Shown here piece by piece: positions 1,410 to 21,082 of a DNA stretch of 64,000 nt (positions are counted from its first letter, which is position 1; each line of letters opens with the position of its first letter). This stretch comes from Chytriomyces cf. hyalinus JEL632 (lineage: Eukaryota > Chytridiomycota > Chytridiomycetes > Chytridiales > Chytriomycetaceae): positions 62,001-126,000 of the forward strand of contig JAIWWG010000037.1 of the NCBI GenBank assembly GCA_025435555.1. Reading direction: 5' to 3'. The notes under the pieces were generated by a model, which saw nothing but the letters and a program-made list of their open reading frames with translations, searched no databases and had not been told where the DNA came from. Both the position numbers and the translations under genes were made by a program.

Positions 1410-1731
1410 TGTTGTAGATCTTTGGCATCTGCGGAAATAGTGCTTCTTCATGCAGCAAAAAAAAATTCACATCGAGAGGCTATATTATAAGTCAGTTACG
1501 CCTTCCACGCACAGGGTCCAATCACATATTATTACGGATTTGAATGCGATATCTTTCACCACATGCCACAGCTCCTTCATATTTCATTTCAGCGTGACAG
1601 CTCTGTTTGGTGGCCCGACGTGACCTTCCTCAAAACTGGGACATTCCTTCTTCTTTTTCCCAAACACATTATTTCTAATGTCCTCGTCAAACACGAGAAT
1701 TACGATCGGATTCGCTACGAAATTCAGTTGC
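1166..1731. repeat. Tandem duplicated tract, unit 1
   Basis: By eye this tract is identical to 2381..2946, a shift of exactly 1215 bp. It covers the 5' third of copy A, the A/B spacer and the 3' end of copy B. Identity stops abruptly on both sides, inside coding sequence, as expected for a recent unequal crossover or gene conversion. Confidence 0.85.
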
Positions 1732-2624
1732 GCTATAAAGTCGGCCGCAAACTCAAACTCCATGGCTTGTGGCACACCAGAAAGCACCTCCATCATTGCA
1801 AATACGAAATATGGACCCCACCCAAGAACGAAAACTGCCACAAGCGCAAGGCTTTGAATCAGCAGCTGCATTTGCTTCTCTTCTTCTTCCGACTTCCTTC
1901 CTTTCGTTCGAGGGAGGGAGGACCTTGTCAGTTGCCTGCTGTCGGATTTCATCGGAACACTGGCGCGGTCAGGCGCAGATTGTGAGCAGCTCTCGTACGA
2001 GCAGACGCTGGCTCCTTTAAAGGCCTCGAACGTTGTTGATACTTTGCGGTAGATCTGAAAATACGCGTATCCCATACCAGACAAAGGAATCGCCAGAGTT
2101 ATGATGCAAGCAACCGACATGACAAGTGTCGGAGGATCTCTCGCATGCCATCGTGGAGTGCAATTGTCGCCCGATGGCTGCATCATGAACGAGACATCTT
2201 GCGACCCAAGCAGGAACGGCAGCGCAGCAAGAATGAAGCTAGCAAACGTTACCGTTGATATATAAGCTATCACGAGCTTTGTAGTGGCTTTTTGAGACTC
2301 CACAATCATTTTGTATCGCAGGAATGTGAGACCTGAACACAGACACAAGGAAATCAAGCAGCCGGCAGTTATCAAGACGGCATGGATCTGACAGATCTTC
2401 TTGTCATACTCGAGAGAATTTCGGATAAGATGTGTAGTAGTAAGTATCCAACCGTTGATCATCGTGAGACAGTCACTGCAGCAGAGCGTAAAGATGATCA
2501 CGGAAGTGTGCGGCAATTCTCTGAGCACGCGTGCATTGGATAGAATGAGGACAGAGTTTAGAGCTATCGCGATGCTGTTGATGATTGCTTTCGACCACGA
2601 ATAAGCGAGGTGTGGGCTGTCCAT
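1584..2624 (-). CDS. Rhodopsin-like seven-helix receptor, copy B
   Basis: Predicted 346-residue, intronless plasma-membrane receptor of the class A GPCR fold. Seven hydrophobic segments lie near residues 12-30, 40-62, 80-101, 118-139, 166-190, 251-275 and 288-312. Class A landmarks: LCCSD in TM2 (Asp51), a Cys78-Cys155 pair linking TM3 to the second outer loop (DNCTPRW), LRY at 102-104 in the DRY position, GWGPY in TM6, and NP at 305-306 followed by an acidic helix-8 start (FDEDIRNNV). The third inner loop is long, Ser-rich and ends in an acidic KSEEEEK stretch. Residue 299, where opsins carry the retinal lysine, is Gln, so this is not an opsin. I chose MDSPHLAY as start because copies C and F also begin MD; an upstream in-frame Met would add 14 residues. 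Ligand unknown. Confidence 0.85.
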   Translation of the reverse strand: MDSPHLAYSWSKAIINSIAIALNSVLILSNARVLRELPHTSVIIFTLCCSDCLTMINGWILTTTHLIRNSLEYDKKICQIHAVLITAGCLISLCLCSGLTFLRYKMIVESQKATTKLVIAYISTVTFASFILAALPFLLGSQDVSFMMQPSGDNCTPRWHARDPPTLVMSVACIITLAIPLSGMGYAYFQIYRKVSTTFEAFKGASVCSYESCSQSAPDRASVPMKSDSRQLTRSSLPRTKGRKSEEEEKQMQLLIQSLALVAVFVLGWGPYFVFAMMEVLSGVPQAMEFEFAADFIAQLNFVANPIVILVFDEDIRNNVFGKKKKECPSFEEGHVGPPNRAVTLK

Positions 2625-2946
2625 TGTTGTAGATCTTTGGCATCTGCGGAAATAGTGCTTCTTCATGCAGCAAAAAAAAATTCACATCGAGAGGCTATAT
2701 TATAAGTCAGTTACGCCTTCCACGCACAGGGTCCAATCACATATTATTACGGATTTGAATGCGATATCTTTCACCACATGCCACAGCTCCTTCATATTTC
2801 ATTTCAGCGTGACAGCTCTGTTTGGTGGCCCGACGTGACCTTCCTCAAAACTGGGACATTCCTTCTTCTTTTTCCCAAACACATTATTTCTAATGTCCTC
2901 GTCAAACACGAGAATTACGATCGGATTCGCTACGAAATTCAGTTGC
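2381..2946. repeat. Tandem duplicated tract, unit 2
   Basis: Partner of 1166..1731, identical by eye over 566 bp. It covers the 5' third of copy B, the B/C spacer and the 3' end of copy C. Copies A and B therefore share a promoter-proximal region, and copies B and C share a C-terminal tail. Confidence 0.85.
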
Positions 2947-3839
2947 ATAACAAAATCTGCCGCAAACTCCAACTCCGTCGGCTGCGCCACGCCAGAAATC
3001 ACCTCCATCATCGCAAATGTGAAATATGGAGCCCATCCAACTACGAAAACTCCCACAATTGCGAGACTCTGAATTAGTAGCTTCATTTGTTTCTCTTCTT
3101 CTTCGGATTTTGTTCCTTTTGTTGGGGGGATCGAAGACCTTGTTCCCCCGCTGCCATTAGATTTCATCGCAACACTGGTGCGACCAGGAGCAGACTGCGA
3201 GGAGCTCTCATAGGAGAAAGTACTGACTCTTCTGAACGCTTCAAATGTTGTCGATACTTTGCGATAGATTTGATAATATGCAAATCCCATTCCAGCCAAA
3301 GGGACTGCTAGAATCGTGATGGCAGAGATAACCAGGGTAAGAGTTTCAGGGTCTCGCCCATGCCATCGTGAAGTGCAATCATCTCCCGATGGTTGCATAG
3401 CGTACGAAACATCCTGGGATCCCAGTAGAAACGGCAAGCCGGCAACGACGAAGCTAACAAAAGTTGCCATTGACATAGAAGCTACCAAGAATTTGGTGGT
3501 TACTTTTTGACAGTGAACGATCATTTTGTATCGCAGGAACGTGAGGACTGAGCACAGATTTATGGAAAGCAAGCAGCCGCCAGTTATCAAGAAGGCATGG
3601 ATCTGACAAAGTTTCTTGTCATAATCGAGGGTGTTTCGGATAATATGTGTAGTTGTAAGGATCCAGCTGTTGATCAGCGCGAGACTATCACTGCAGCAGA
3701 GCGTAAAGATCAGCACTGAGGTGTGAGGCAATTTTCGGAGTAGGCGTGAATTGGACAGAATGATAACAAAGTTTAGAGCCAGAGCGATGCTGTCAACGAT
3801 TGATTTTGCCCACGAATACGCGAGGTGTGGGTTGTCCAT
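2799..3839 (-). CDS. Rhodopsin-like seven-helix receptor, copy C
   Basis: 346-residue intronless paralogue of copy B starting MDNPHLAY. It has the same landmarks: a TM2 LCCSD, a TM3 cysteine (KLCQIHA), the loop-2 cysteine (DDCTSRW), LRYKMIV after TM3, GWAPYF in TM6, and NPIVILVFDEDIRNNV across TM7 and helix 8. The C-terminal tail (FGKKKKECPSF onward) is identical to that of copy B because it lies in the duplicated tract. The body is clearly diverged, so only the ends have been homogenised. Expected to be an intact G-protein-coupled sensor; ligand and G-protein partner cannot be read from sequence. Confidence 0.85.
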   Translation of the reverse strand: MDNPHLAYSWAKSIVDSIALALNFVIILSNSRLLRKLPHTSVLIFTLCCSDSLALINSWILTTTHIIRNTLDYDKKLCQIHAFLITGGCLLSINLCSVLTFLRYKMIVHCQKVTTKFLVASMSMATFVSFVVAGLPFLLGSQDVSYAMQPSGDDCTSRWHGRDPETLTLVISAITILAVPLAGMGFAYYQIYRKVSTTFEAFRRVSTFSYESSSQSAPGRTSVAMKSNGSGGTRSSIPPTKGTKSEEEEKQMKLLIQSLAIVGVFVVGWAPYFTFAMMEVISGVAQPTELEFAADFVMQLNFVANPIVILVFDEDIRNNVFGKKKKECPSFEEGHVGPPNRAVTLK

Positions 3840-4014
3840 TGTTGGAGATCTTTGGCATTTGCAAAAGTAAGGTTTGCTTTTGATGGAGTATAATTTTTTT
3901 TACGCAAACCCGATATTTATTCAGCCTGTCCAAAAGCCGTGTGCAAGACCCAATCACATTATTACGCATATCTCTGCGAATATCTTTCACCGCATGCCAC
4001 AGCTCCTTCATATT

Positions 4015-5024
4015 TCATTTCAGCGTGACAGCTCTGTTTGGTGGCCCGACGTGACCTTCCTCAAAACTGGGACATTCCTTCTTCTTTTTCCCAAACACAT
4101 TATTTCTAATGTCTCGTCAAACACGAGAATCACGATCGCATTCACTACGAAATTCAGGTTCATAACGAAGTCCACCGCAAACTCCAGCTCCGTCGTCTGA
4201 GGCGCCCCAGAAATCACTTCCATCATCGCAAATGCGAAATATGGAGCCCACCCAACCACGAAAACTCCCACAATTGCGAGACTTTGAATCAGCAGCTGCA
4301 TCTGCTTCAACTATTCCTCGGATTTTGCTCCTTTTGTTGGAGGGATCGAAGACCTAAGCAGTAGCCTGCTATTGGATTTCGTCGGAACATTGATGCGACC
4401 AGGAGCAGATTGCGGGCAGCTCTCGTAGAAGAAAGTACTGACTCTTTTGAACGCCTCGAACGTTGTCGATAATTAGCTGTAGATTTGACTCCATTCCAGC
4501 CTAAGGACAGCCAGCATCATGATGCAAGAGATTACCATGACAATCGTGGCGTGCAGTTATAGCCCGATGGTTGCACAATGTACGAAACATCCTGGGATCC
4601 CAGTAGAAACGGCAAGCCGGCAACGGCGAAGCTACCAAAGGTTACCGTTGATATAGAAGCCACCAAGAACTTAATGGTGACTTTTTGACAGTGGATACTC
4701 GTTTTGTTTATCGCAGGTACGTGAGGCCAGAGCACAGGTTTATGGAAAGCAAGCAGCCGCCAGTCAGTTATCAAGACAGCATGGATGCGGCAAAGTTTCT
4801 TGTCATAATCGAGGGTATTTCGGATCAGATGTGTAGTTGTAATGATCCAGCCGTTGATCAGCACGAGACTATCGCTGCAGCAGAGGGTGAAGATTATCAC
4901 GGAAGAGTGCGGCAATTCCCGCAGTACGCGTGCATTGGATAGAATGACGACAGAGTTCAGAGCTAAAGCGATGCTGCTGACGATCGCTTTTGCCCATGAA
5001 AAATAAGCGAGGTGAGGGGTCCAT
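4015..5024 (-). pseudogene. Seven-helix receptor copy D, decayed
   Basis: Recognisable from end to end as a receptor of this array but broken many times. Compared with copy C it shows: a net +1 indel just after the start; a 4-bp duplication (cagt) near 4762 that shifts frame in TM3; extra bases at the LRYK motif; loss of about 30 bp around the loop-2 cysteine region near 4550; loss of bases near 4487; a stop in the acidic KSEEEE stretch near 4310; and a single-base deletion near 4110 that turns the helix-8 motif FDEDIRNNV into FDETLEIM. Yet the last ~130 bp (3983-4112) are almost identical to copies B and C, which points to recent conversion at the 3' end of an otherwise old pseudogene. Confidence 0.85.
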
Positions 5025-5089
5025 TGTTGCAGATCTTAAGCATTATGGTATGCTTTCACTCTTGGACAAGTAAAGTTGACGGTATTTAT

Positions 5090-6112
5090 TTATGTTATGT
5101 CACTCCTTCCAAAACGCCCAGTGCAAGGACCAATCACATTATTACGGATATCCTTATCAAACACGAGAATCACAATTGGGTTCGCGACATAATTCAGTTG
5201 CGCTATAAAATCCGCCGCAAACTCAAACTCCGTCGGCTGCTGCACTCCCGAAAGCAGTTCCATCATCCCAAACAAGAAGTATGGACCCCATCCAACTACA
5301 AAAACTCCCACAATTGCTATGCTTTGAATCAGTAGTTTCATCTGTCTCTCTTCCTCCTCGGATTTCTTTCGTTTGCCCGCTTGAACAATAAGGGGAGATG
5401 ACTTTGTTTGCTGTCCGTTGTCAGATTGAACGGTGACGTTTACGAGACCGCGCGATGACTGCGATGAGACTTCATAGCTGACTACTCCGGTAACTCTAAA
5501 TGCTTCAAATGTTGTTGATACTTTTCGGTAGATTTGGAAATACGCGCATCCCATTCCAACTAACGGCGTTCCAAGAATAATGGCGCAAGTGGTTGATACA
5601 ATGAGTGTCCGTGGGTCGCGACCATGCCATCGCGGAGTACAGTTGTCGCCGGATGGTTGCATAAAGTACGAGTCATCCTGGGATCCCAGCAGGAACGGCA
5701 GGCTAGCCACTGTGGCAGAAACAGTAATTGACGCGGATATGTAACTTGCAACGAATCTCGTTGTGATCTTTTGCGCCTTGACAATGACTTTGTATCGGAG
5801 CAAAGTAAGCCCCGCGCATAGGCTCATTGAAAGTAAAGCACCGCCAACGACCATGGCGGCATGGATCTGGCACAATCTATTATCGTATTCAAGACTATTT
5901 CGAAAAAGATGGGTTGCTGCGATGGTCCAGCTGTTGATCAGGGTGAGATTATCGCTGCAGCAGAGAGTGAAGATTAAGACAGACGTGTACGGCAATTTGT
6001 ACACGAAACGGGCGTTGGATACAACGAGAGTAAAGTTGAGAATGAAGGCAATGCCTTCCGTGATGACCACTGTCCATGCATAGCCACGATGGGTTGAATC
6101 CATTCTTTGCAA
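5090..6112 (-). CDS. Rhodopsin-like seven-helix receptor, copy E
   Basis: 340-residue intronless receptor. The start is MQRMDSTHRGY, or MDSTHRGY three residues later to match its paralogues. TM2 has LCCSD, TM3 is preceded by RLCQIHA, loop 2 carries DNCTPRW, TM3 ends LRYKVIV, TM6 has GWGPYFLFG, and TM7 ends NPIVILVFDKDIRNNV. The inner loop 3 ends KSEEEER. The C-terminal tail differs from B and C (VIGPCTGRFG), so it lies outside the homogenised region. This copy is the best reference for locating the lesions in copy A, with which it shares several segments. Confidence 0.85.
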   Translation of the reverse strand: MQRMDSTHRGYAWTVVITEGIAFILNFTLVVSNARFVYKLPYTSVLIFTLCCSDNLTLINSWTIAATHLFRNSLEYDNRLCQIHAAMVVGGALLSMSLCAGLTLLRYKVIVKAQKITTRFVASYISASITVSATVASLPFLLGSQDDSYFMQPSGDNCTPRWHGRDPRTLIVSTTCAIILGTPLVGMGCAYFQIYRKVSTTFEAFRVTGVVSYEVSSQSSRGLVNVTVQSDNGQQTKSSPLIVQAGKRKKSEEEERQMKLLIQSIAIVGVFVVGWGPYFLFGMMELLSGVQQPTEFEFAADFIAQLNYVANPIVILVFDKDIRNNVIGPCTGRFGRSDIT

Positions 6113-6167
6113 ATCTTTTCCTGTAAATCTTCAATTTGACGAACAGCGGGACAGTTCAAGTTCAAGT

Positions 6168-7181
6168 TTAACACGTCACGCGTCTGCTTATTTTTATTGC
6201 AACAAATGAGAAGCTATCGCGCACGTTTTTTTGAATGTCCTTATCGAAAAGAAAGATGACGAAGGGGTTTGCCAGATAATTCACTTGCAAAACATAGTCT
6301 GCCGCGAACTCAACCGAAGCCGAGAGACTCACCCCCGACAAAAGCCCAAATGTTCCGTACAGCATATACGGCGTCCAACCAACAACAAATACACCTACAA
6401 TAACAAGACTCTGAATCAAGAGCGCCACCTGCTTCTCCTCCTCTTCGCACTTTTCGCGTTTGCTCTGTTTCGTAAGATGCCAAGTCCCCGTTTTTATCTC
6501 AGAAGCATTCGTCAAAGCGCCTGTGTTTGAAGTTTGAACTGATTTTCCTTCGTTGCTGATGACGCCGGTCGCTTTGAACGACTCAAACGTTTTCGAAACT
6601 TTTCGATAAATAAAGTAGTACGCGAACCCGATCCCCGTCAACGGTGTCACCAAAATCACGGCGCAAGCGCAAGAAACAATGACAGTTCTCGGATCCCGGC
6701 TGTGCCATCTGACTGTGCAATTGTCGCCAGAAGGCTGCATTACATATGATTCGGCTTCGGAGCCAAGCATGAACGGCAAAATGGCCGTCAAGAAGGCAAC
6801 TGCGGCAGAAGAGCCAATGTATTGCGCGATAAACAGGCGAGTGATTTTACGCCCGGTTACAATGACCAGAAATCGCAGCAGAGTTAATCCAGCACACAGA
6901 CCCAGCGAAAAAAGCGCGCCGAAAGTGATAAAAATGGCCTGGATTTGGCACATTCTCGCGTTATAGTCGAGGCTTCCACTTGTCAGGTGGTGGACAACGA
7001 GGATAAAAGTGTTGATCATGGTGATGTTGTCGCTGCAGCACAGGAAGACGATCAGAACTGAGGGTTGCGGCAGCTTATGAAGACAGCGAACGTTGGACAG
7101 AATAATGATCAGATTGAGGGTGATTGCGATGCCTTCGGTGATGGCCGTTGCCCAGGAATAACCCCAGTGTGCCTGGTCCAT
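6168..7181 (-). CDS. Rhodopsin-like seven-helix receptor, copy F
   Basis: 337-residue intronless receptor and the most divergent intact copy, at the head of the array. It starts MDQAHWGYSW. Landmarks are kept: LCCSD in TM2, MCQIQA before TM3, LLRFLVIV in place of LRYKVIV (Tyr replaced by Phe), DNCTVRWHSRDP in loop 2, GWTPYMLYG in TM6 and NPFVIFLFDKDIQKNV in TM7/helix 8. Inner loop 3 is again long, with an acidic EEEEK end. Its start is about 50 bp from the divergent OB-fold gene, so the two may share a promoter. It may be the founder from which the array grew toward lower coordinates. Confidence 0.85.
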   Translation of the reverse strand: MDQAHWGYSWATAITEGIAITLNLIIILSNVRCLHKLPQPSVLIVFLCCSDNITMINTFILVVHHLTSGSLDYNARMCQIQAIFITFGALFSLGLCAGLTLLRFLVIVTGRKITRLFIAQYIGSSAAVAFLTAILPFMLGSEAESYVMQPSGDNCTVRWHSRDPRTVIVSCACAVILVTPLTGIGFAYYFIYRKVSKTFESFKATGVISNEGKSVQTSNTGALTNASEIKTGTWHLTKQSKREKCEEEEKQVALLIQSLVIVGVFVVGWTPYMLYGTFGLLSGVSLSASVEFAADYVLQVNYLANPFVIFLFDKDIQKNVRDSFSFVAIKISRRVTC

Positions 7182-8366: not shown

Positions 8367-9088
8367 ATGACCGACCTGAATTGGTATGTGCGCCTCCTCT
8401 GCATGACCTCTCCCCTCCTGCACTGGTGCCTTTGTGATGGTGCGCCTGGTGCATTAGAATGCCGTGGCATGTCCTGGAATGATCGACGCAGTGCCACATT
8501 TGCGCAATGACTGGATGTGGCCGGTCCTTCTCCCGCTACTCTGGTAGTAGGGATCACTCCTACCTGGGGATACAGCCAACAAAAGCACCGTGGTCGTGGC
8601 CCGTGCGCCGTCTCCGCTACTTTGTGGCACCCCCATATCCCACATAAAATTCCGCTCTGTTGACCGCCAATACCCACGCTGACCCTCACACCAACAGGTG
8701 CATCTGCGGCAAGTCCACGATGGAAGACGCCCTCTACTGCTCCCTCCGCTGCAAAACGGCCGACTGCAAATCGATGACGCCAGATTCGTGCCCAGTCAAA
8801 CACGGAAAAATCGAACCCTTCTTTTCCCTTCCCAGCCCAGCAATTCTCTCCCCAACGTCACCATGGAAGACCGCAGCCGCGCCACAAAACACATTTGTCT
8901 TCCACTCGGGTTCTCCCTCAAAGCCGGTGGGCGCGCCCTTTCTCAAACGACCCCGCATGAACTCTGTGGAAACGCCGCCGGCAAGCCCCGTTTTGAGACA
9001 CGTGTTGAATGAACACGACACGGCGAGTGCCGAGTTCTTGTACGCACAACTGGCGTTCAACAGGCGAAGCAAGCGCGCCGTTTCATAG
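8367..9088 (+). CDS. Ecl1-family zinc-binding protein, copy 1
   Basis: CDS join(8367..8383, 8698..9088), 135 residues. Exon 1 codes only MTDLN plus two bases of a Trp codon. The donor is gtatgt and the 314-bp intron ends in cag; exon 2 completes the Trp and runs straight into the zinc motif CICGKSTMEDALYCSLRC. This spacing (CxCGK, then YCSxxC) matches the Ecl1/2/3 family (Pfam Life-span regulatory factor), small zinc-binding proteins that in fission yeast respond to starvation and extend chronological life span. The rest is Ser/Pro-rich and ends YAQLAFNRRSKR, a tail shared with other copies here. The intron is the longest in the array. First of eight genes on the same strand. Confidence 0.8.
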
Positions 9089-9391
9089 CCCAAGGCGCAC
9101 GTCGTTGCTGTACTATTATTCCCCCCACGCATCCTGCACCCAATCAGTGCTTGCTGCGCTTGCTGCCGTTCCCTGTTTCTTTTTCTCCTTGACTCGACTC
9201 ATTTCGTCAATTGTATTCTTTCCATTCTCCTCTTGATATATTATTTGGTGTGCTGCTGTAAAGGTCCAATGTAAATCTCGTAAAATGCCCCGCGTATTTA
9301 TCAAAGCAATTTAACAGATGAGTTGATTTATGGATGGACAACTCCACAATGGACCAAGCTTGTGCACAATATTTATTCAACACATTTGCAG

Positions 9392-12300
9392 TCAAAAGAA
9401 GCTGCCCAGGATGTTCACATTCTCATCATCACCATCTGCTTCAAGCAAATCCCTCACTTTTTGGTTGCGCAACAGAACAGGCTTCATTTTGATCTTTCCA
9501 CTAGTTTCCTTGAATGTCTCACTCAAACTTGCCTGTTTCAAAAATCATGAAAGTTAAACCAATATGTTGTTTCCCAAGGAAGATTTTGTTTACCCCTTTA
9601 ATGTTTTTCAGGATATCTTTGAGAAGGATATGCTGATCACGCTTCATTTTGCCAGGCTGCATAAATGCAATGTCAAATGCCTTTCAAAAAATAAATTTGA
9701 ATCAGTATGATTTGGGGACACTCAAAAAGAGCCACATTTACCTGAAGTCTTTCTACAGACATGCCTGGAAGTGCAACCAGGGTCTCAAATGCAGAAGAGC
9801 AGTTTTCTTGACGTAGCAGCACATAAATATCACACATTAGAACTGCAGCCTCATTGTGGATTTCTTGAAAGTACCCATCATGGAATAGCTGCCAGTGAAT
9901 TTATGTGAGATTTATATTTGGCTATCAAAAAAAGTTGAAAAAAACAATACTACCTCCAAGCAGGTATGCATCACAGTTTGGCCAAGGTATTGGAATACAT
10001 CTGTACGTTTTGTTTTCACCAACACAGGCAGACACTTGATCATTGCTGTTAAGGCTTTTCGACTTGCCAATGTGTCTTTGAGCATCATGACTTGCAGGAG
10101 ACATCCAAACAAGGCAGCAAAGAGAGTCTGGGTTCATGTTGTCGTGTAAATGAGTGAATAACAAGCTGAAAGCCACTGCACCAACAAACCTGATCAGAAG
10201 CAACATAAAAATAGATGCTGGATTCATCAATTTGAAGAACTGGCTTCTCTTTTGACCTTCCCCCACCCCCAACATTGGCTGGCTTTCCTTGGTCTGGTGA
10301 TACAATTGCAACAAGCAGATCTGAAAACACACGTGTGAGGTCACGCAACAGCTTTTCAGCCACAACTTCTTTGCTGGGTTCCTCATCCTCAGTGATGCTG
10401 AAATAAAAACAAAAATGGTGAATGAGCAACTGAGAGCACTAAAACTTGGAAGTTGTCTTACTCTTCATCTGGTACAGTGTTCTCCACCCCCTGCTTTGCT
10501 GTTTCAATCACCTCCCATTCTGCAGCAAGCATTCCTTTCATAAACTCCACCAGCTTCAAAAACAAGTTACTGAAAACCAGGCCACGTGCTTCCATGGGGC
10601 AGTTCATTAGCAAGGGGCGAATGACTGTTCCAAGCAGAGTCCTCCAATGCAGTGTGCCAAGATGACTTGAGAATGGACCAAAGAGGCAGGCTCCAAGCTG
10701 GTTATACACATTGGGTAACTTGCAGAAGGTGGGACCAGATGATACCATTGCACCCATGACAGAATAACTGAATAAAATCTCAGCTTGTTAAACATTAGAC
10801 AGACATTGAAAAACAACCAACGTACCATGCCTCACGCATCCCTGCAATCCATGACTCTGTTTTGTGCAAGAATACTTTGATCTTGTTCTCCTCATGAGAC
10901 ATGATTTTAGGGGTGGACTTCTCTGATTGTCGAATGACATCAGTCAATGATGTGAATGAAGACATAGCAACCAAAACTCAACTGAGAATAGCATCTTTTG
11001 CCCCTTCAGAAATCACCATATTTAAATGAAGATGCACTGGTACATTTGCCCATGCTGAAGGCTCACTCAAGCTGTGGATACACCTGGAAACTCATTCCAT
11101 CAGCCCTCATAAAAAACCAAGCTTCAGGTTTTACGTACTGAGTGATTACAAAGATTCCTGGAGCTATGCATGCAAGGTACGGGGTCCACAAGCTTGGCTG
11201 AAAACATGGCTGTGTTTTAGCTACACAAACACAATAAAAAAGAAAGAGACTTCCAAAACAAACCTTTCCAGTTGTACGCTTCATCCAACTCATCCAGCTA
11301 CGCACTGAAATACTGACCTGAGCAGAAAAAAAAAAGTAGCAAGCTTAAATAAACTCATTGAAAAAAACCCAGAGTTGATCCAAACCTTTTGCTGCCATTT
11401 GCTGATTTCTGTGAGGCCATCTGGTGTCATTGTCCCTGCTCAACAGTAGTTGTTAAATGGTAAAAATCATGCACCAGTACTAAAGATGTACCTGTTGCTG
11501 CAAGCTTTCTGATCCCCAGATACCCAAGCAAAGAGTCTGATGATCCAAATGGTGTTGGATCAAGTGCCTCCCATTCCTGCACATATCCTTCAAGAATGCT
11601 GGCAAACATGGCAGATTTTTCAGAGGCTGAGATGCTGGAGGAATCACTGATCCAAAAAAAAAAAAAAAAAAAAAACATGACACCCATGAACATCACATCA
11701 TAAAAACATAAGGAGAAAATACTCAACATGACAGCAATCAAGAATTCAATTAATTTGACACGTTCTGCTTGTGTGACTTTGTTCTCAGCAATGAATGACT
11801 GAACCAATTGTACAAATTGACCAAACAAGGGCTGAAGATCACATCAAATTAGCTGCCATTTGTCAAAAAACCTCATCCAGATAGAGAAATTACTCACAAT
11901 GAGCATATCTGGAACAGCAATTGCCAACTTGATCAATGCAGTTGCAGCCTTCATTCTCAGGTTTCGTGTTTCTTCTCTCAGAATGACGCCACGTTGAATA
12001 AAGTCAACTTCATCAGGAAGAGTGAATGTGACACAGTTGACGATCTGCAAAATGTGTGTGCTGCTCAGACAAAAAAAGGGGGCATGTGATTGTGGTGTCA
12101 AAATACCTTCTCAATGCAAGTAAGCAGAATGCTGTTGTCTCGTGCAACTTCTGCAATACAGACGTAGGCTGACATGAGAAACCTTCTGACAATTGGGTCC
12201 TGCAAAAATGGTAGAGCAGTCAGATTTTAACAGTGATGGAAGCCAACAAGGTGCTCTCTACCATAGATTCAAAAGCCAGAATGTCTTGAAAGTATGCTGA

Positions 12301-14853
12301 CAGCAGGTTGAACAGAGCAGAATCAAACTTTGGATCCTATTTCAAGGGCAGAGATTTGTTTTCAATAGATACAATCAGGTGAGGGACAGAAATATAAAGC
12401 TTGTTACCTGTGCCACAACTTTATCATGGTCCAAGTTCCGCATGACATGCTCAATCAAGGTGGATGCATTTTCAAAGTGAACAGATGTTGCAGATTCAGA
12501 TTGAATGAATCCAAATTCTAGGAGTGTATGGAAGTTAAAAACTTGAACATGAAAATTTTGGGTAAACAATACCATTTTTTTGCACATTAGGATTTGCAGC
12601 CAACAACCCTCTTGAAAAATCTTGAACCATTGAACAGACATCAATTGACTGATATAAATAATGATCAAAAATCCATGTCATTTGCAGGAAAAGTGAGGTA
12701 CTCACATAATTCAACATCAAAAACCGAAGGAGGTCAAGGTATCTCTGCCCATTTGAGGCAATACATGCTGTTCTGTCTTGCTTGCAGTCAAAGTCTGAAG
12801 AATCATAGGCTGCAGACACATTTGATATGAACTCAGAGTCACCCTGTTGGTGGATACCTTTTGTTAAAGATCCCAGTTCCAACCTACAACTTTGCCCAAA
12901 TCACCTCAGAAAGCCTCTGAATACAGAATTGGATCAATTTCAGTCTGTATCCACTAAGCTGAGGTGCCTGTAAATGGATAAAAAAGGCAGCGTTGCATCA
13001 GATCACATAAAAACTAATCAAAAGTATATACATCTTTCAGAAGAGGATGACTTGCAACAGCAGCCCAAACATGTACAACCAAAGAAGAAACTGTGCGAGA
13101 TGGGTGACATGTAAAGTAAACCAGCAACTCAAGATATCTGATGTGTTTTAAACAAAAGTTTTTTTTGTGAGTTGAGTTCAAGTTGTTTTAATATAAGGTA
13201 CCGTTCAAGATGTGGCACAGCTTGAGTCATTTGCTTGTAAAAGACTTGATGTTCTCCAAAAACTGATACAATCTGATTTGGGTGAGTGATCAGACAACAA
13301 GATGTCAAAACACTTATCTGCAAACAAAAAAACAAAACCTCAGCAATTTTTTTCAAGTATTCATAAGCATTATTCTCCAGTGTTTGGGTATTGGTAGCAC
13401 CATGAACCATGTCCCAGTTCTGACAGGAGTACACTGCTTGCACAGATCTGAACAGGGCAGACAGCAGAAATCCATCTCCCTCCATCAAAGGCGTAACAAT
13501 TGCTGGCCAAAACAGTTCTTCAGTCACAAGGCTGCTGCGACTAAACAAGGCTGAAAGGCATTCAGCAGCAGCCTAAAAAAAAAAAAAAAAAAAAAAAAAG
13601 TGGAAAAAATTAGGTTGGTTTTACAATTGCAAAGAATGACAACCAGAAAAAGTTGTACCATGCGCTCTTGAAATGATTCAGACAACAAGAATTCAAAAAG
13701 AACAGGCAAGATATTTGAAGACTGGATTCCTCTGAATGATGAAGTTCATCAGCTTGCACAGTTAAATTTTAGATATGGACAATGAGAAACTCAACTCAAG
13801 TATGATCCAATGAAGAATGATTCCAATAGTTTCAAGGGAAAGCTGGATAAGTTTCTTGGAAGTGGATGTGCTGACATTGTCCTGCATGGCGTAAAACAAA
13901 CGGCCAAAATGAGAAAACAACCAAATATGGGAAAAGAATGAAATGCCAACAAGATGATACCTTTTTCCACGCAATCATATTTTGAGTCAATCGCAACATC
14001 CACCCTTTATGTTGAGGATCCGCACGGATCACGTTCAAGACATAATCCACATTCACAGTTTGCTTGGACACCTTCAGAGAAGCTCGATCATTGCTGCAAT
14101 AGACGTGATTCAACACGTTTGCATCCAAGGTGATGGCCATCAGTGAGACAGACAGGTCCTTTTTTCGCGTATCAGCTATTGAACTTTCGAAAATGAACAT
14201 GTCCTCCATGATTGCTTTGTAGATGAGAAGAGCTCTTTCTTGAGAAGCAGGCTGGGGTGGGAATGCGTCAGAATTGGTTGCGGGATTTCGTAAAAAAAAC
14301 ACCGTCTCACGTCTTTTGCGAAAAGGGCGCACAGGTACGTGTCAAACTCTGGCCACTCGACAGGCCACATTCTTTCGGCAACTTGAGCAAGCACGGCACA
14401 TGCTTTTTGCGTAATGAATGGCGGTAAACTGGACCCGGCCTTTGCGACAAAGGGTTGTTGTTTGGAGACGAAGAGATGGATATCAGATGTGCATCGCGCG
14501 CAAAAAAAAACACAGGAATATGAACCTGATTTGAGAGAATTTGCGCAAGCTGGTCCCGTAGAAGCAGTTTGTTTGGTTGCGCGACGTCGTTCCAGCCAAA
14601 GCGCACGGCATGTTCGAGCAGAGAAAGACCAAAGAATAGCGCATTGACATCGCGGGCAATGGAGAGTAATTCGAGTCCCGTTTGAATGCACAGTGGAGAG
14701 TGTTTGATGTTCTCGAGCATCTGCGTGGTGGTTTTGCCGGTCAGATGGGGCTGATGAGTGCGATGTTGAAGTCACCTCGTTGGCGCTCTTTCGGTCCTGC
14801 AGGGAAGTTGACGGCGAGTGCACCGCATTCAGCGCGGCTGTTACTGACTCCAT
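9392..14853 (-). CDS. XPO5: Exportin-5 (Msn5/XPO5-like karyopherin)
   Basis: Large intron-rich importin-beta-family gene. Exons I could phase: 14776..14853, 14526..14720, 14311..14439, 13961..14251, 13796..13881, 13659..13731, 13339..13572, and the last, 9392..9532, ending NVNILGSFF. The joined N-terminus reads GLSLLEHAVRFGWNDV, then QKACAVLAQVAERMWPVEWPEF, the exportin-5 pattern (LQILEHVVKFRWN; a KREWPQHWP-like helix). These proteins carry cargo (pre-miRNA or tRNA in animals, phosphoproteins for yeast Msn5) from the nucleus with Ran-GTP. Exons between 9.5 and 13.3 kb are clear as short open segments but not all junctions were fixed. Several introns carry long T-runs next to the acceptor on the coding strand. 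An in-frame extension to 15066 exists, but homology favours the MESVTAAL start. Confidence 0.8.
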
Positions 14854-15296
14854 TTTGATTCTGAGGTGAAGGCTGCCATCAAAATCTGGGCAAGACGAAC
14901 GGTCAAAATGTTGACTCACCAGTTCCTGGATTTTGATTTTATTTTCTGCATACCGAATGCTGTACTTGGAATCATGGTAACGAGCCCCATTGACAAAATG
15001 ACAGGAAGCGGTTAAAAACCTGATGAGAAGCGGTAAATGTTCGCGCATTTTATTTACGCCTTCCATGTTGTCTGTGCTGCAGAAATCTATACAGATCCAG
15101 CCAACAAATCACCGACTTTTCGGACAAAATGGACAAGAAACGGACAACACGCTCGCGCTGTTCGAGTTGGATCACATTTTCTTTTTACTTTTTTGCAACC
15201 CACTCTGACTCAACCTGGATAATAATTTTGTTCAAAAAAAAAAGAGTTCACCGCCACAAACGGCCGAAACCCAACACATCACACACAACACAGCGT
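14854..15296. promoter_or_regulatory. Divergent spacer between exportin and Ecl1-type copy 2
   Basis: Holds the promoters of the exportin gene (minus) and Ecl1-type copy 2 (plus). The exportin frame stays open upstream to 15066 (MEGVNKMREHL...), with no family similarity that I can see. It is either a species-specific N-terminal extension or untranslated leader. Confidence 0.4.
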
Positions 15297-15862
15297 ATGT
15301 CCGACTTGAACTGGTGCGTGCATCCCCCCCAACCAGCGATCACTCCACGCCCGCATGATCCATCATCTCTCCCTGTGCGAATCCAGGATCTTGAAAATCA
15401 AATTGAAGGGGGATCAAGTTGAAGGGGGCGATCACTTTGAAGGGGTGGTGCCAAACCACACATCGTCTAACTCGATCCATCTGCTTACCCTTCCCCATCA
15501 GGTGCATCTGCGGAAAGGCAACAAGCGACAATGTCTTTTACTGCAGCCACGATTGCCAAGTCGCCGACGCTTCTGCATTCGCCACATCAACTCCGCCTTC
15601 TCCACCTTCGGCACAGACGCATTTTGTAAACAATGCAATCCATTCGATCGATCATCAGTATCAAGATCATGGACTTGGAAACTACACTCTGATGCGTTCT
15701 TTGGCGACTAGCAAGAGAAGCGCTCGAGAGACAATCCCAGCACCGTATCATTCGATCGGAAGCATCAAGCAAGGCATGGATACATGCGGTGCGCGATTCA
15801 TACATGAAACCCAAGTTTATGCGCAGCTGGCGTTCAACAGCAGGAACAGACGCTTCCATTGA
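15297..15862 (+). CDS. Ecl1-family zinc-binding protein, copy 2
   Basis: CDS join(15297..15313, 15502..15862), 125 residues. Exon 1 is MSDLN plus TG of the Trp codon, donor gtgcgt, acceptor atcag. Exon 2 gives CICGKATSDNVFYCSHDC, the Ecl1-type zinc pair, then a Ser/Thr/Pro-rich middle, and ends VYAQLAFNSRNRR. If the intron were retained the frame would still read W-C-V, because the donor repeats the GTGC that opens exon 2. Divergent from the exportin gene and head-to-tail with copy 3. Family role (starvation response, life span) is known for yeast homologues only. Confidence 0.8.
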
Positions 15863-16157
15863 TTGATTTGACTGACGGCAATTCCTTTTTTTCTCTTTTG
15901 CTGCTTGCTGATTCATTTTCTTATTTATATAGTGGTATTTATAAAAGACGGTATACTTTTCGGATGTCGCTGGTTGTCGCATCGTTGTTGTTTTTTTTTT
16001 TTATATGCACGTGCGTTTATTTAGAATGGTTTGCCGATCTTGAATCCCCCGATGCGATTGACCAATCACAGAAAACAAAAATAAAAAAAAGAGAGAATAC
16101 TCGCAACGCCCCCAACCTGTTGGAAATAACTGGAAAACCAAAGAAATACGCAAGGAA

Positions 16158-16700
16158 ATGGACATGAACTGGTGAGCAGCATCCTCGCAACCCCGTTTGA
16201 ACAGCTTTTCTGAATGCAATGATCGCTCGCCCCCCTGCAACAGGTGCCTTGTGTGTGGGAAAGCCACGAGCAACGACTCGGAGCTATACTGCTCACATCT
16301 CTGCTGCATGCAAGACGGAGACAAGTCCCGCATCGATCCATCCCTTCATGATCATCACTCATCCAACAAGTCGTTAAACATCAATTCACACCACATGCTT
16401 CACGAACCACCACCCCCGCTTTCTCTCTCGTCTCCATTCGGCGAAACGTATTCACCGTCGAAGAACTTGAGTGCACCGCCGGGAATGACCTTGTCACCGC
16501 AACAACTCAAATGGGATCCGTCGGTGCAGCATATTGGACCCTTGTTTCCTGCAACAAACACTTGTGCGACTGTGCTGGATCATTTCGGGTTAATGTCTCG
16601 CATGCGTGGATCTCCGAGCATGAATAGTCCAAAGACGGATGCAACCGCGTCACTGTATGCGGCCTTCTCGTTCAACAATCGGAAGAAGAGGGTGCGGTGA
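16158..16700 (+). CDS. Ecl1-family zinc-binding protein, copy 3
   Basis: CDS join(16158..16171, 16244..16700), 156 residues. Exon 1 is one codon shorter than in its siblings (MDMN plus TG), the donor is gtgagc and the intron is 72 bp. The zinc motif is CLVCGKATSNDSELYCSHLC with an extra Cys next to it. The centre is rich in His, Ser and Pro, and the end is YAAFSFNNRKKRVR, matching the shared tail with Phe-Ser for Leu-Ala. The stop is followed within a few bases by a CTTG/TTTG repeat. Confidence 0.78.
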
Positions 16701-16703
16701 CGT

Positions 16704-16756
16704 GCTTGCTTGTTTGCTTGTTTGTTTGTTTGTTTGTTTGCTTGCTTGCTTGCTTG
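16704..16756. repeat. CTTG/TTTG tetranucleotide repeat
   Basis: About a dozen tandem copies of CTTG or TTTG directly after the stop of Ecl1-type copy 3, so within its 3' UTR. A simple-sequence tract, probably length-variable. Confidence 0.8.
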
Positions 16757-17093
16757 TACAGAAGATTCATTAAAGACCCGCCCTCGTTCATTGGTCGCCA
16801 ACTGTCTCCATTTTATGCTGACGATCCGTAAATCGCAAACAAAGGATCGCACGTCAGAAAAAGGTTAAAAATCGATCGATGCAAAAAGTAGTGTGTGTGA
16901 CGTCACGTTGGATTTGGCGCCACCTTAAAAATGACCCCCACATTTCCCAAAACCCTAATTCGCAAAGAAGTAAAGTTGTAATTTAACAGCACTCAGAAAT
17001 TCAATTGCATCTGTTGTTTGAGCCACTTGGGTTCTGTTTCACACTCCCCCAGTTGTCATGACAGTTTTCTTCTTCCAAAACTCTTACTACCAA

Positions 17094-17426
17094 ATGTCCA
17101 ATCTCGACTGGTGCTTCTGCGGCAAGATGACCATCGAGGGCGCTCTCTACTGCTCAGATCGCTGCTACTTTGACGAGACGGGAAGATCCATCCACTCCGA
17201 TTCCAAGCATACCATCCACCTGCACCAACACAGTGTCTCGGTCTCTCTACCCACTCGCATCCACTCGCGATCGCCCGTGCGACAACGACCCGACACATTA
17301 ACCCCTTCCACCAGCCCCATGTCGCAGTATTATGGATCGTGGGGTAGCCACACTCAGACTGGGAGCATTGGGGATTGTTTTGCAGCACTCGCTTTCAAAG
17401 GAAGACGAAACCAAGGCAGCATGTGA
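17094..17426 (+). CDS. Ecl1-family zinc-binding protein, copy 4 (intronless)
   Basis: 110 residues in one exon. It starts MSNLDWCFCGKM, so the Met-to-Trp leader and the zinc motif (CFCGK...LYCSDRC) are fused with no intron. In all seven siblings an intron splits that Trp codon. Removing the sibling intron exactly would give this junction (tggtgc). I chose this ATG over one 36 bp upstream because it matches the sibling leaders. The tail is FAALAFKGRRNQ, a weaker form of the shared end. The loss looks precise, as in cDNA-mediated conversion. Confidence 0.78.
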   Translation: MSNLDWCFCGKMTIEGALYCSDRCYFDETGRSIHSDSKHTIHLHQHSVSVSLPTRIHSRSPVRQRPDTLTPSTSPMSQYYGSWGSHTQTGSIGDCFAALAFKGRRNQGSM

Positions 17427-17433
17427 AACCATC

Positions 17434-17451
17434 AGAGAGAGAGAGAGAGAG
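17434..17451. repeat. Short GA dinucleotide repeat
   Basis: About nine GA repeats a few bases after the stop of Ecl1-type copy 4, in the presumed 3' UTR. Confidence 0.7.
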
Positions 17452-17628
17452 TAATTGCTTTTTATCTACTTTAGCGTGTACAGACAGTTTGTTTGAATTC
17501 GAGCAGTAAAAACCGTGTTCAATATTTTGTTGTGTCTTTTTTCCTTTTTTATATTTGTCATTCAAAAACAATCAGGCAACAGGAGTCAACCAGCCGCACG
17601 GGCTTAACAAAAACACGGATACTGAATC

Positions 17629-18219
17629 ATGGCCGATCTCAACTGGTGCGTGCATGTCTCTTACTCTCGTCCACGGCCTTGCTAACCCAGCAGCGTTCCT
17701 CACAGGTGCTTCTGCGGCAAAGCCACAACAAACGCCGCCCAACTCTACTGCAGCGACACCTGTCTGCGCTCAGACGGATACAGCAATCCATGCGCATCCA
17801 CCACCACCCACTCCCTTAATGCACAACAACCACGCTTCACAAACAGCGGCGGTGACCCGCGTGTCCACACTCGGAACAGGGACAAATTGGTTTACCCGCT
17901 TTCACCCGCACCAGCCACCAACCACCACGCAAACCCATTTGCGCACTACTCCTCTCACTATAGTTTCATCTCCGCATCGAATCTCATTGCTCCTAAACCG
18001 CAACGACACCACCACCCTGCATCTTCCGCTGCAATGTACTCTATCCTTAATGTTCCTTATCACTCGGGAAATAGCACCCCAATTTCTTCGCCACCGCGGC
18101 AGTCGTATAGTCCTGTGCCTTCCCGCGGTGCCACGTTTTTAAGTCCGGGCCGCGTTAGTTCCATCCTTGGGCACTTTGAAGAGATTGCCGAGCAGCAGCA
18201 GAGACTGCGAAGCCGGTAG
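17629..18219 (+). CDS. Ecl1-family zinc-binding protein, copy 5
   Basis: CDS join(17629..17645, 17706..18219), 176 residues. Exon 1 is MADLN plus TG, donor gtgcgt; the 60-bp intron ends in acag. In the exon 2 frame the zinc motif is CFCGKATTNAAQLYCSDTC. A different frame stays open longer across the first part of exon 2, so simple ORF calling misses this product. The rest is rich in Ser, Pro and His. The tail is ILGHFEEIAEQQQRLRSR, a short charged helix, and the LAFNxR ending of most siblings is absent. Confidence 0.75.
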
Positions 18220-18351
18220 TTCCGATCTCCTCTTCTCCTTGAACACTACCCTTCCTCCCCTGAACATTACCCATGTATTTGTATAGTCTTTTGTATACTT
18301 TTTTGTAAGCTGTTTTGTTGTTATTTTTTGGATTCATTTGCAGTGTTTAAT

Positions 18352-18357
<6 letters not shown>

Positions 18358-18420
<63 letters not shown>

Positions 18421-18421
18421 T
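18358..18421. repeat. CTGT microsatellite
   Basis: About 16 uninterrupted copies of CTGT between Ecl1-type copies 5 and 6, 140 bp after the copy 5 stop. No palindromes or spacers, so not a CRISPR array. Confidence 0.9.
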
Positions 18422-18657
18422 GAATATGTAGTCTTTGGCCCTTGAAAATAAAAGCTGAATATATGTTAACATCAAGCACTCTCATTGGTCAATCCATCGA
18501 TCCTATCTCTCAAGCCCCTTTTATGATGCCTCAGAATTTTTTGTTATCTTGACTTTCGGCGGATGCCGGGTAACGGATAAGATATGGGGATGTTTGATAT
18601 AATTAAACAATGCCCGCGATTCTCAAACAAAGATCCTGTGAACTGAACAAGAAAGAC

Positions 18658-19178
18658 ATGACTGACGTCGATTGGTGGGTGTGGCCTGGCCTGGCATGTC
18701 CATCCCCCATTCCCTCCTTCTGACCCATACTCTCATCAGGTGCCTTTGCGGGAAGAAAACAGACGGCGTCTCGCTCTACTGCTCAGCGCGTTGCAGATCC
18801 ACAGACGGCGGCTGCACCTCCAACGAGGGATCCTTCTTGCCCACAGAGTCCAGCAGTGTCGACATGGACCTGGGACGCTTGAAGCGCACAACAAGTCTTG
18901 TCAAGAACCTGTCGCATTTGATGATGGAAATGGATCTTTCTTCAACGCTTTCTAGTCGCAGCACTCGTCACTACTCCGGGCAGCATATGTTTTCTTTGTC
19001 GGCGACTTCTCCGACCATGTCGTGTCCTAGCTTGGTTGACTCATTTTCTCTGCCACGGTCCATTGCGGGATCCGAGAAGCGGCAGCACGACGAAAGCAGC
19101 CAAGCACTTATTGGTCAATCACGAGACGCATCTTTACCGCCTTTGGCTCTGAAACGACGGAAAATGGTCAAACTATGA
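18658..19178 (+). CDS. Ecl1-family zinc-binding protein, copy 6
   Basis: CDS join(18658..18674, 18740..19178), 151 residues. Exon 1 is MTDVD plus TG, donor gtgggt, intron 65 bp. The zinc motif CLCGKKTDGVSLYCSARC is intact. The middle is Ser-rich with the stretch SLVKNLSHLMMEMDLSS. The end is LPPLALKRRKMVKL, a degenerate version of the shared tail that keeps the basic character (LALKRRK for LAFNxRxR). Upstream is the CTGT microsatellite; copy 7 follows 275 bp later. Confidence 0.78.
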
Positions 19179-19453
19179 CAGGGAGAACCAGGCTCAAATA
19201 TTTATAACTTGTCTTCCGTACTTTGATACTTACAGCAAAATAATGACAACTGCACACTGCATGAGTAGGATGGGTTGGGGTTGGGTTGTTGGAACTAAAA
19301 ATAAAATCCAAACACCCGAAATTTGTTTCATTGGGGTCAATCAACGGCGCGTGGCCAGAGCACGTTTCTTTCTTTTTTCTTTCGACTCGGGACGCCGTCA
19401 TTTTACACTCCAGAAAACAACCCCATACCTCCATCTGTCTCTTTGCTGAAACC

Positions 19454-20369
19454 ATGTCGGATCTGAATTGGTGGGTGCATAATCTTGGGAGCTGCCACTT
19501 CAGAAATCTTGTCTCTCCGCACATGCTCAAAATACCATCGGACACTATCTCATCCTTCTTTTCCTGCTTCCAAAAGGTGCTCGTGCGGAAAAGCTACGCA
19601 ACCAGGGACAATGTACTGCAGCACACTGTGCCGAACCGCTGACGAAGAATCCAACAAACCAACCTCGTCGTCCTGGTCCCTTGACAACGCTGCCAACATC
19701 AACACGAGCAGCCCAATTGCTTTTTACCCGTACAACCACTTTGCCAATGTCGCTATGCAATCTCCTCGATCGCCCTTCATGACTTTGCTTCCGCAAACTA
19801 CTCCCAAGTTTGCTGCCGCTGCGTCTCCGAGATTCACGGGGTCGTCAAGTCGAGGCGGAGCAAGTAATTCTCCGTTTGCTTTGGGATCCATTGCCGCTGG
19901 TAGTGCGGCTGGCAACTTGGGTGCAGCAAGTGGCGCATCGATTCCGTTCTTGGCTCTTCCCCAAAGTGAATTGGATTTACCGCCTCTTGAACTGGATGGT
20001 TCAAAGAAACTGGAAGTTGTTGGCGGGAATCTATCTGGAGCACACACAAGAATGGACCCGTTGATTTCAAAAAGCCGGCGCGCTTCTGCAAACATCCAGT
20101 TTAGCCCGCTCAGTCACCCCACATCTTCAGCAACAGTAGCACCACCAGTAGTGTCGAACCATCCGCGAACAAGTGTACGGAATATCCTTGAAAGTCCCAT
20201 GATGAGTGGAAGGATTCCGCCGCCGAGCCCGCGAATGACGGGGGGCAGTCAAGACATGAGCTGTGCAGCGGGACCGAATGGTGGTGGGCTCGTGACGGTT
20301 GCTGGATCCAACGCCATGTTGGATGATTGCTATGTGTCGCTTGCGTTTAATAATCGGGTTAGGAAGTAG
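19454..20369 (+). CDS. Ecl1-family zinc-binding protein, copy 7 (long)
   Basis: CDS join(19454..19470, 19577..20369), 269 residues, the longest member. Exon 1 is MSDLN plus TG, donor gtgggt, intron 106 bp. The zinc motif is CSCGKATQPGTMYCSTLC. The long middle is Ser/Ala/Gly/Pro-rich and looks disordered, with several SP or RxxS sites such as ILESPMMSG and IPPPSPRMTG that could be kinase targets. It ends YVSLAFNNRVRK, an almost ideal copy of the shared tail. Zinc motif and tail sit at opposite ends whatever the spacer length. Confidence 0.8.
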
Positions 20370-20767
20370 TTTTTTTTGTTTTCATTGTTTTGTGTGTGTG
20401 TGTGTGTGTGAGGGGTGAAGAAGATTTGTATAAATTACGTGAAAGTACACATGTCTGTTTGGCTGCGTTGTCTCGCCTGAAAACGCGCTTTTCTTGTGTG
20501 CGGGTGCAATCAGCCACCAAAGTTCACGCGATGGAACCATTTTTTTTACGGATTGTTTTCGAAAGAATCGCCCCGTCAAATCGGAACACATCATCGACCA
20601 ATACAAAAAAAAAAAAAAAAGAAGGAAAGCCAACAGACAAGAGAGAGCGCCCGAGTCACAAAATCCCGTATATGCAAACAAGTCACTGCATAGAATAGAT
20701 CGCGCGTTTCCACAATTTACTTTGCTCTCTTCAGCTTCCTCCCCTTTTTTTCCCGAAACCACACAAC

Positions 20768-21082
20768 ATGGCCGACCTCAACTGGTGAGACCCCTTCCAA
20801 CTTAAACATCAACTCATCTCATTCTTTTACACTGAACAAACATCTCACTTCCAATATCTCAGGTGCATCTGCGGCAAAGCCACCAGCCATCTCTCGAGCG
20901 ATCTGTACTGCTCGTACGAGTGTCGCGAATCAGAAATGCAAGGTCCTCAAATGTGCGGCACATCCAACGCGTCCTCCTGTCATCAAAACAAGCGTAACCG
21001 TGGAAGCAACCATCTCGTGACGGACATTGACACTTACTACGTGGCTCTGGCATTCAATAACCGGGCCAGGTCGCCAAAGTGA
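20768..21082 (+). CDS. Ecl1-family zinc-binding protein, copy 8 (minimal)
   Basis: CDS join(20768..20784, 20863..21082), only 78 residues. Exon 1 is MADLN plus TG, donor gtgaga, and the 78-bp intron ends in ctcag. Exon 2 gives CICGKATSHLSSDLYCSYEC, a short linker and the ending TYYVALAFNNRARSPK. It is nearly pure zinc motif plus shared tail, close in size to yeast Ecl1 proteins, and shows which two parts the family keeps. The plus-strand frame is too short to be found by ORF length; exon phase and the two motifs support it. Confidence 0.75.

Follow-up and report, generated by a model that had tools for sequence, protein, structure and literature searches.

Ecl1-like genes of Chytriomyces cf. 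hyalinus JEL632: an expanded array with a conserved C-terminal motif

Ecl proteins appear to be conserved only in fungi, and the fission yeast Schizosaccharomyces pombe has three ecl genes; there Ecl1 is mainly nuclear during growth, binds RAPTOR (Mip1) and Wat1 (the Lst8 ortholog), lowers the activity of target of rapamycin complex 1 (TORC1) when overexpressed, and retains far less function once any of its four cysteines is replaced, the molecular basis of its action on TORC1 being described as unresolved (PMC11984688, in the part of that paper drawn on here and below). The window analyzed here, 64,000 nucleotides of the Chytriomyces cf. hyalinus JEL632 genome (GCA_025435555.1, contig JAIWWG010000037.1, positions 62,001 to 126,000), contains an array of eight genes (E1 to E8) for proteins of this kind. 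Like Ecl1, Ecl2 and Ecl3 of S. pombe, they have an N-terminal head of four cysteines, small size and several paralogs in the same genome (PMC11984688), but seven of the eight have CxC in place of CxxC and an intron within the head, and their copy number is far above the three of S. pombe (PMC11984688). COH1 of Metarhizium robertsii, an Ecl1-domain regulator of 174 amino acids, resembles the array proteins in its domain, its length and the hydrophobic residue after its first cysteine, which most array copies share, but it is single-copy (PMC8366996, in the part drawn on here and below). Limited keyword searches of the literature found no report of an Ecl1 gene array of this kind. The array is real, larger than initially reported, and a variant of the known Ecl1 family from which its function may be assigned; the chief new findings are how far the family has expanded, its CxC head and a C-terminal motif under selection.

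Membership of the Ecl1 family, as claimed in the original prediction, was supported by profile search: PF12855 (the Pfam Ecl1 model, 170 profile positions, curated cut-off 28.3 bits) matches all eight window proteins with E 0.0026 or better, scores above its cut-off in four (E2, E3, E5 and E7), and matches none of the eight when they are reversed as a control. Eight syntenic relatives from elsewhere in the genome together with N2, a conventional Ecl1 protein (both described below), gave matches in eight of nine cases, one of them above the cut-off, the exception being copy 6 on contig C199. All eight window proteins have four N-terminal cysteines with the second pair in the predicted form YCSxxC; the first pair, predicted as CxCGK, is CxC in seven, but in E3 it is CxxC (WCLVCGK), the spacing of Cys6 and Cys9 in S. 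pombe Ecl1. To our knowledge, no source formally demands CxxC of family members. The four cysteines and the Y-C-S core are kept in all 19 proteins aligned, with six residues invariant (19 of 20 complete genes of the genome; copy 1 of contig C90 crosses the locus boundary and was left out). Sequence searches of solved structures returned one match at E 1.9 and, in a second search, none up to E 10, and single scans of a viral contig collection (query C90 copy 1) and of a prokaryote contig collection (query N3) returned no confirmed relative.

Rebuilt from the DNA, the eight genes occupy one strand within the limits first proposed for them, from the first ATG at 8367 to the last stop at 21082 (Table 1); the count of eight stands, but the array consists of one gene plus seven, copy 1 being parted from copies 2 to 8 by an exportin-5-like gene. 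In seven of the eight, a tiny first exon (14 or 17 nucleotides) codes for M-x(3,4)-W and a GT..AG intron of 60 to 314 nucleotides splits the Trp codon (exon 1 ends TG/GT; exon 2 opens G/TGC). The leader had been given as M-x4-W, which fits every copy except E3, where it is M-x3-W. Copy 4 (E4) reads MSNLDWCFCGK straight through without an intron, which is independent support for a W-C splice junction in the remaining seven. All seven syntenic relatives with an intron, five of them on C199 and two on C90, have the same spliced frame but other intron lengths, and the C199 counterpart of copy 4 is likewise intronless.

Table 1. Ecl1-like genes of the window, related loci of the same genome and neighboring genes (plain numbers are positions in the window).
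Feature	Location	Strand	Exon 1	Intron	Exon 2	Length (aa)	Head	C-terminal end	PF12855 (bits)	Remarks
E1	8367..9088	+	8367-8383	8384-8697	8698-9088	135	CxC	tail YAQLAFNRRSKR	25.8 (below cut-off)	Ecl1-like gene
E2	15297..15862	+	15297-15313		15502-15862	125	CxC	tail YAQLAFNSRNRR	30.6 (above)	
E3	16158..16700	+	16158-16171		16244-16700	156	CxxC	tail YAAFSFNNRKKR	33.6 (above)	
E4	17094..17426	+				110	CxC	tail FAALAFKGRRNQ	24.4 (below)	intronless
E5	17629..18219	+	17629-17645		17706-18219	176	CxC	conserved end FLSPGRVSSILGHFEEIAEQQQRLRSR, no YxxLAF tail	36.1 (above)	
E6	18658..19178	+	18658-18674		18740-19178	151	CxC	tail LPPLALKRRKMVKL	19.3 (below)	central LKRTTSLVKNL
E7	19454..20369	+	19454-19470		19577-20369	269	CxC	tail YVSLAFNNRVRK	28.7 (just above)	long linker
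E8	20768..21082	+	20768-20784		20863-21082	78	CxC	tail YVALAFNNRARSPK	22.1 (below)	
Array on C199	61.7-67.0 kb of C199	-								copies 1-6, then fumarase-like gene
Array on C90	267.7-270.5 kb of C90	-								copies 1 and 6, remnant of copy 8
N1	C191						CxxC	..FSLEFKSRRPRRI		conventional
N2	C191						CxxC			conventional
N3	C232						CxxC			conventional
N4	C223						CxxC			conventional
Exportin-5-like gene	about 9.4-15.1 kb (9400-15100)	-								between copies 1 and 2
Receptor row	443-7181	-								similar 7-transmembrane receptor genes

The genome (37.8 Mb in 242 contigs, the region of the window being contig C174) contains two more syntenic arrays, which were found by protein search with copy 8 and by DNA comparisons. 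That of C199 has copies 1 to 6 in unchanged order, counterparts of E7 and E8 not being found on this contig, and that of C90 has intact copies 1 and 6 together with a copy 8 remnant that lacks the head. The complete array-type genes thus number 16 (8 + 6 + 2), to which four conventional Ecl1 genes are added, and the total of 20 is a lower bound because the genome search scores best candidates only. The proposed expansion to eight genes was accordingly right as an expansion but too low as a number, the genome having at least 20 complete Ecl1-type genes, which bears on the yeast picture of one to three. In a full-protein tree each of the six gene lines forms a cluster of copies from corresponding syntenic positions (bootstrap 99-100), and the tandem array is therefore older than the regional duplication; the same tree did not resolve the order of the tandem duplications. 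The pattern CxCGKxT occurs at 26 sites genome-wide (16 for a control pattern), 13 of them within array-type genes on C174, C90 or C199, and the two sites inspected among the 13 others (C206 and C213) have no Ecl1-like frame.

Among the four conventional genes, three were recognized by PF12855 (45, 42.2 and 38.6 bits, each above the cut-off) and the fourth, which lies on C191 some 2 kb away from the first, by its tail pattern (25.6 bits, below the cut-off). N1 to N4 have the CxxC pair, a head without intron, and FSL[EQ][FI]KSRR at or near the C-terminus, N2 continuing for about 20 residues beyond it. They share with the array the W-C head, YCS..C and a basic C-terminal motif, but differ in lacking the GK after the first cysteine pair and the head intron, and in having FSL[EQ][FI]KSRR where the array has YxxLAFNxR. 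Trees separate the conventional from the array-type group (99/99, with long-branch warnings). A central LKR[ST]..NL is common to N3, N4 and E6, and the match of the copy 6 sequence LKRTTSLVKNL to N3 and N4 gave the lowest shuffle p that the test allows, 0.001, in all three copy 6 proteins. Genome-wide, the conventional tail pattern occurs five times (once for the control), four times in N1 to N4, and the stretch around the fifth site (C167) has no Ecl1-like frame.

The array tail, [YF]xx[LF][AS]F[NK]xR, was confirmed in six of the eight window proteins by regular expression, and occurs within the last 25 residues of none of 160,000 shuffled proteins. Copy 5 lacks it, as predicted, but has a different conserved end of its own (FLSPGRVSSILGHFE), and copy 6 keeps the end LALKRRKM. 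The description of the tail as a new motif did not survive comparison with paralogs of the same genome, four conventional Ecl1 proteins of which end in the related FSL[EQ][FI]KSRR. A matrix built from the six array tails has its best window at the C-terminal motif in all four conventional proteins (individual shuffle p between 0.0055 and 0.0155; combined p 5e-4, which is the floor of 2000 shuffles), the four not being independent tests because they are related to one another; in window copies 5 and 6 the same matrix was not significant (p 0.86 and 0.17). The array tail thus seems to be one form of an end motif that the family shares in this genome, and not something that the array invented. 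Nor does the pattern mark array genes exclusively: it has 60 sites genome-wide (35 for a control pattern), of which 10 fall in complete array-type genes and one in the E8 remnant, and about 20 others are copies of a single repeated sequence. At C25:13428-13915, a sequence with the tail pattern recurs in three copies at intervals of 231 bases; it is probably an unrelated tandem repeat.

Pfam's Ecl1 model appears to leave the tail largely out. Isolated tails gave no Pfam match (0 of 3), and with the end piece attached a head scored about 3.5 bits higher in three of three cases (37.4 to 40.9, 23.7 to 27.1 and 25.5 to 29.0), while in a single scrambled-tail control the score of 27.4 bits equaled that of the real tail, the matched stretch stopping in the spacer. 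The match to full-length N2 covers residues 1-169, which reach into the tail, and profile positions 1-163 of 170, so that a weak tail signal in PF12855 is possible.

Selection on the three parts of the protein was compared by codon in the six duplicate pairs of the window and C199, with the own ends of copies 5 and 6 included in the tail set. Head and tail are under purifying selection: the pooled ratio of nonsynonymous to synonymous substitution rates (dN/dS) is 0.16 in the zinc head, 0.31 in the linker and 0.09 in the tail, in support of the functional tail that had been proposed. Identical residues make up 94 of 105 tail positions versus 333 of 523 linker positions (Fisher p 4e-8). The pooled proportion of synonymous differences (pS) is 0.49 in tail and linker alike, but that of nonsynonymous differences (pN) is 0.06 in the tail versus 0.21 in the linker, which indicates that the tail is old and that its conservation is one of protein sequence. 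In copies 1 to 6, the tail core is equaled or exceeded in conservation by 1 of 80, 5 of 71, 17 of 101, 8 of 55, 0 of 108 and 21 of 97 linker windows, respectively. Kept despite large changes of the linker in array and conventional copies, the C-terminal motif is a candidate binding or targeting site.

The zinc heads of copies 2 (from 15297) and 4 (from 17094) differ little from their C199 partners at synonymous sites (pS 0.07 and 0.06), and the linkers of the same copies have pS 0.50 and 0.47; the low head values may reflect gene conversion, or else constraint that acts on the DNA sequence as such.

The array is read here, with moderate confidence, as a locally expanded and diverged branch of the Ecl1/TORC1 inhibitors, whose products would be adaptors with a zinc head and, at the C-terminus, a motif for docking or nuclear entry. 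Tandem copying of a conventional CxxC Ecl1 gene probably came first, and a larger regional duplication would have followed; on the simplest view the array line gained the intron in the Trp codon, which copy 4 would have lost again, and the zinc pair was presumably shortened to CxC in seven of the eight. Each protein is most likely a small adaptor in which a four-cysteine zinc head is joined by a linker of freely varying length to a hydrophobic patch and basic residues, which may dock on a partner, bring the protein into the nucleus, or both. TORC1 or RAPTOR would be the expected contact, and matches to the RAPTOR N-domain (PF14538) are present on two contigs of the genome (C176 and C169). By analogy with fission yeast, the array proteins are predicted to be expressed, to bind zinc and to inhibit TORC1 in a dose-dependent manner, starvation raising the amount of protein and thereby the inhibition, and many copies could let different signals call the same growth brake. 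Diversified starvation or life-span regulation, as first suggested for the expanded family, is an inference.

Several observations weigh against this reading. Half of the window proteins (E1, E4, E6 and E8) score under the PF12855 cut-off; in the C199 counterpart of E6 the head is shortened and Pfam gives no match, so that a head can decay while the C-terminal end stays; and the CxC spacing, in a head whose zinc binding is predicted, differs from the CxxC of S. pombe Ecl1. Single pairs give a weaker selection result than the pool, E4 having nearly equal dN/dS in tail (0.26) and linker (0.28), with few synonymous changes in the tail, and linker windows that match or exceed the tail core number 17 of 101 in E3 and 21 of 97 in E6. 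The AlphaFold model of E4, built with 18 relatives, most of them without the spliced leader, is poor (mean predicted local distance difference test score 54.6); it folds the head into a hairpin and places a short helix across IGDCFAALA, to which little weight is given.

An extension of the adaptor reading is offered only tentatively: in a flagellated, early-branching fungus, at least 16 array-type genes derived from one starvation effector, with their own promoters and linkers but a mostly shared output peptide, may constitute a multi-input TORC1 brake, the peptide, unrecognized in Pfam's Ecl1 model, serving as the module by which the family docks on TORC1 or a nuclear partner. The expansion also bears on the way in which early fungi feed many starvation signals into a single control of growth. 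A candidate for a shared promoter element, ATTGGTC (a reversed CCAAT box) in the 350 bp upstream, was rejected: it is present in five of the eight window genes, but its p of 2.4e-5 precedes correction for 2075 tests and none of eight duplicates has it.

It is possible, though doubtful, that the tail is chiefly a nuclear localization signal (NLS) and that the proteins are nuclear co-regulators which bind and destabilize transcription factors, TORC1 being secondary to this or not involved. Basic stretches end several tails (KRRK, RRSKR, RKKR), but the clusters are weaker in E4, E7 and E8, and conservation extends beyond the basic end to the hydrophobic YxxLAF core. S. pombe Ecl1 fused to green fluorescent protein is mainly nuclear in growth (PMC11984688), and Metarhizium COH1 contacts COH2 and lowers its stability, but COH1 has no predicted NLS (PMC8366996).

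That the family tail is a RAPTOR-docking peptide akin to the TOR signaling (TOS) motif (Phe, x, hydrophobic, acidic, x), a short hydrophobic peptide of S6K, 4EBP1, Psk1 and Atg13, is improbable. According to this idea, the conventional FSLEF, FSLQF and FSLQI would stand near TOS and the array tail would be a divergent descendant. RAPTOR is a known partner of Ecl1 (PMC11984688), the motif works in fission yeast Psk1 and Atg13, and FSLEF of N1 recalls FSLDE, the candidate TOS of Ypk3 (PMC8542387, in the part drawn on here). However, Phe-4 and Asp-7 are indispensable in Psk1 (PMC8542387), whereas the Phe is present in four of four conventional proteins but the acidic residue in one, Gln replacing it in three, and none of six array tails has Phe or acid at the aligned places; a TOS reading, attractive for N1, thus fails for the array. 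A neutral birth-and-death family, with redundant copies and a tail whose conservation stems solely from recent shared ancestry or from gene conversion, is very unlikely: the reduction of C90 to intact E1 and E6 plus the head-less E8 remnant, the lack of detected E7 and E8 on C199 and the low head pS of E2 and E4, as gene conversion would give, are in its favor, but it is disfavored by the selection result, in which the lower pN of the tail at equal pS marks the tail as old and selected and even the linker has dN/dS well below 1.

As for the genomic surroundings, the DNA of the exportin-5-like gene (PF19273, 42.1 bits in one exon) has a single occurrence in the genome. The distance from copy 1 to the next array gene is only about 0.5 kb on C199 and about 1.1 kb on C90, a pattern that would follow from loss of the gene after duplication or from its insertion in the window. 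C174, C90 and C199 carry three syntenic regions (window 443-25153) at different divergence, and loci for RAPTOR (C176 and C169) and radial-spoke proteins (C231 and C182) are duplicated; together these suggest a genome-scale duplication or a hybrid origin. The radial-spoke matches point to a flagellated organism, and with Ecl proteins apparently confined to fungi they make a chytrid-like fungus likely.

The receptor genes on the minus strand upstream of the array form a row with a spacing of about 1.2 kb, evident as self-similar BLAST blocks, and include four open reading frames of at least 200 amino acids, of which the two that were scanned match PF00001 (7tm_1, rhodopsin family) with 79.4 and 66.8 bits. 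The row has a syntenic counterpart on C90, and tandem rhodopsin-family receptors in a fungus-like genome are notable in their own right.

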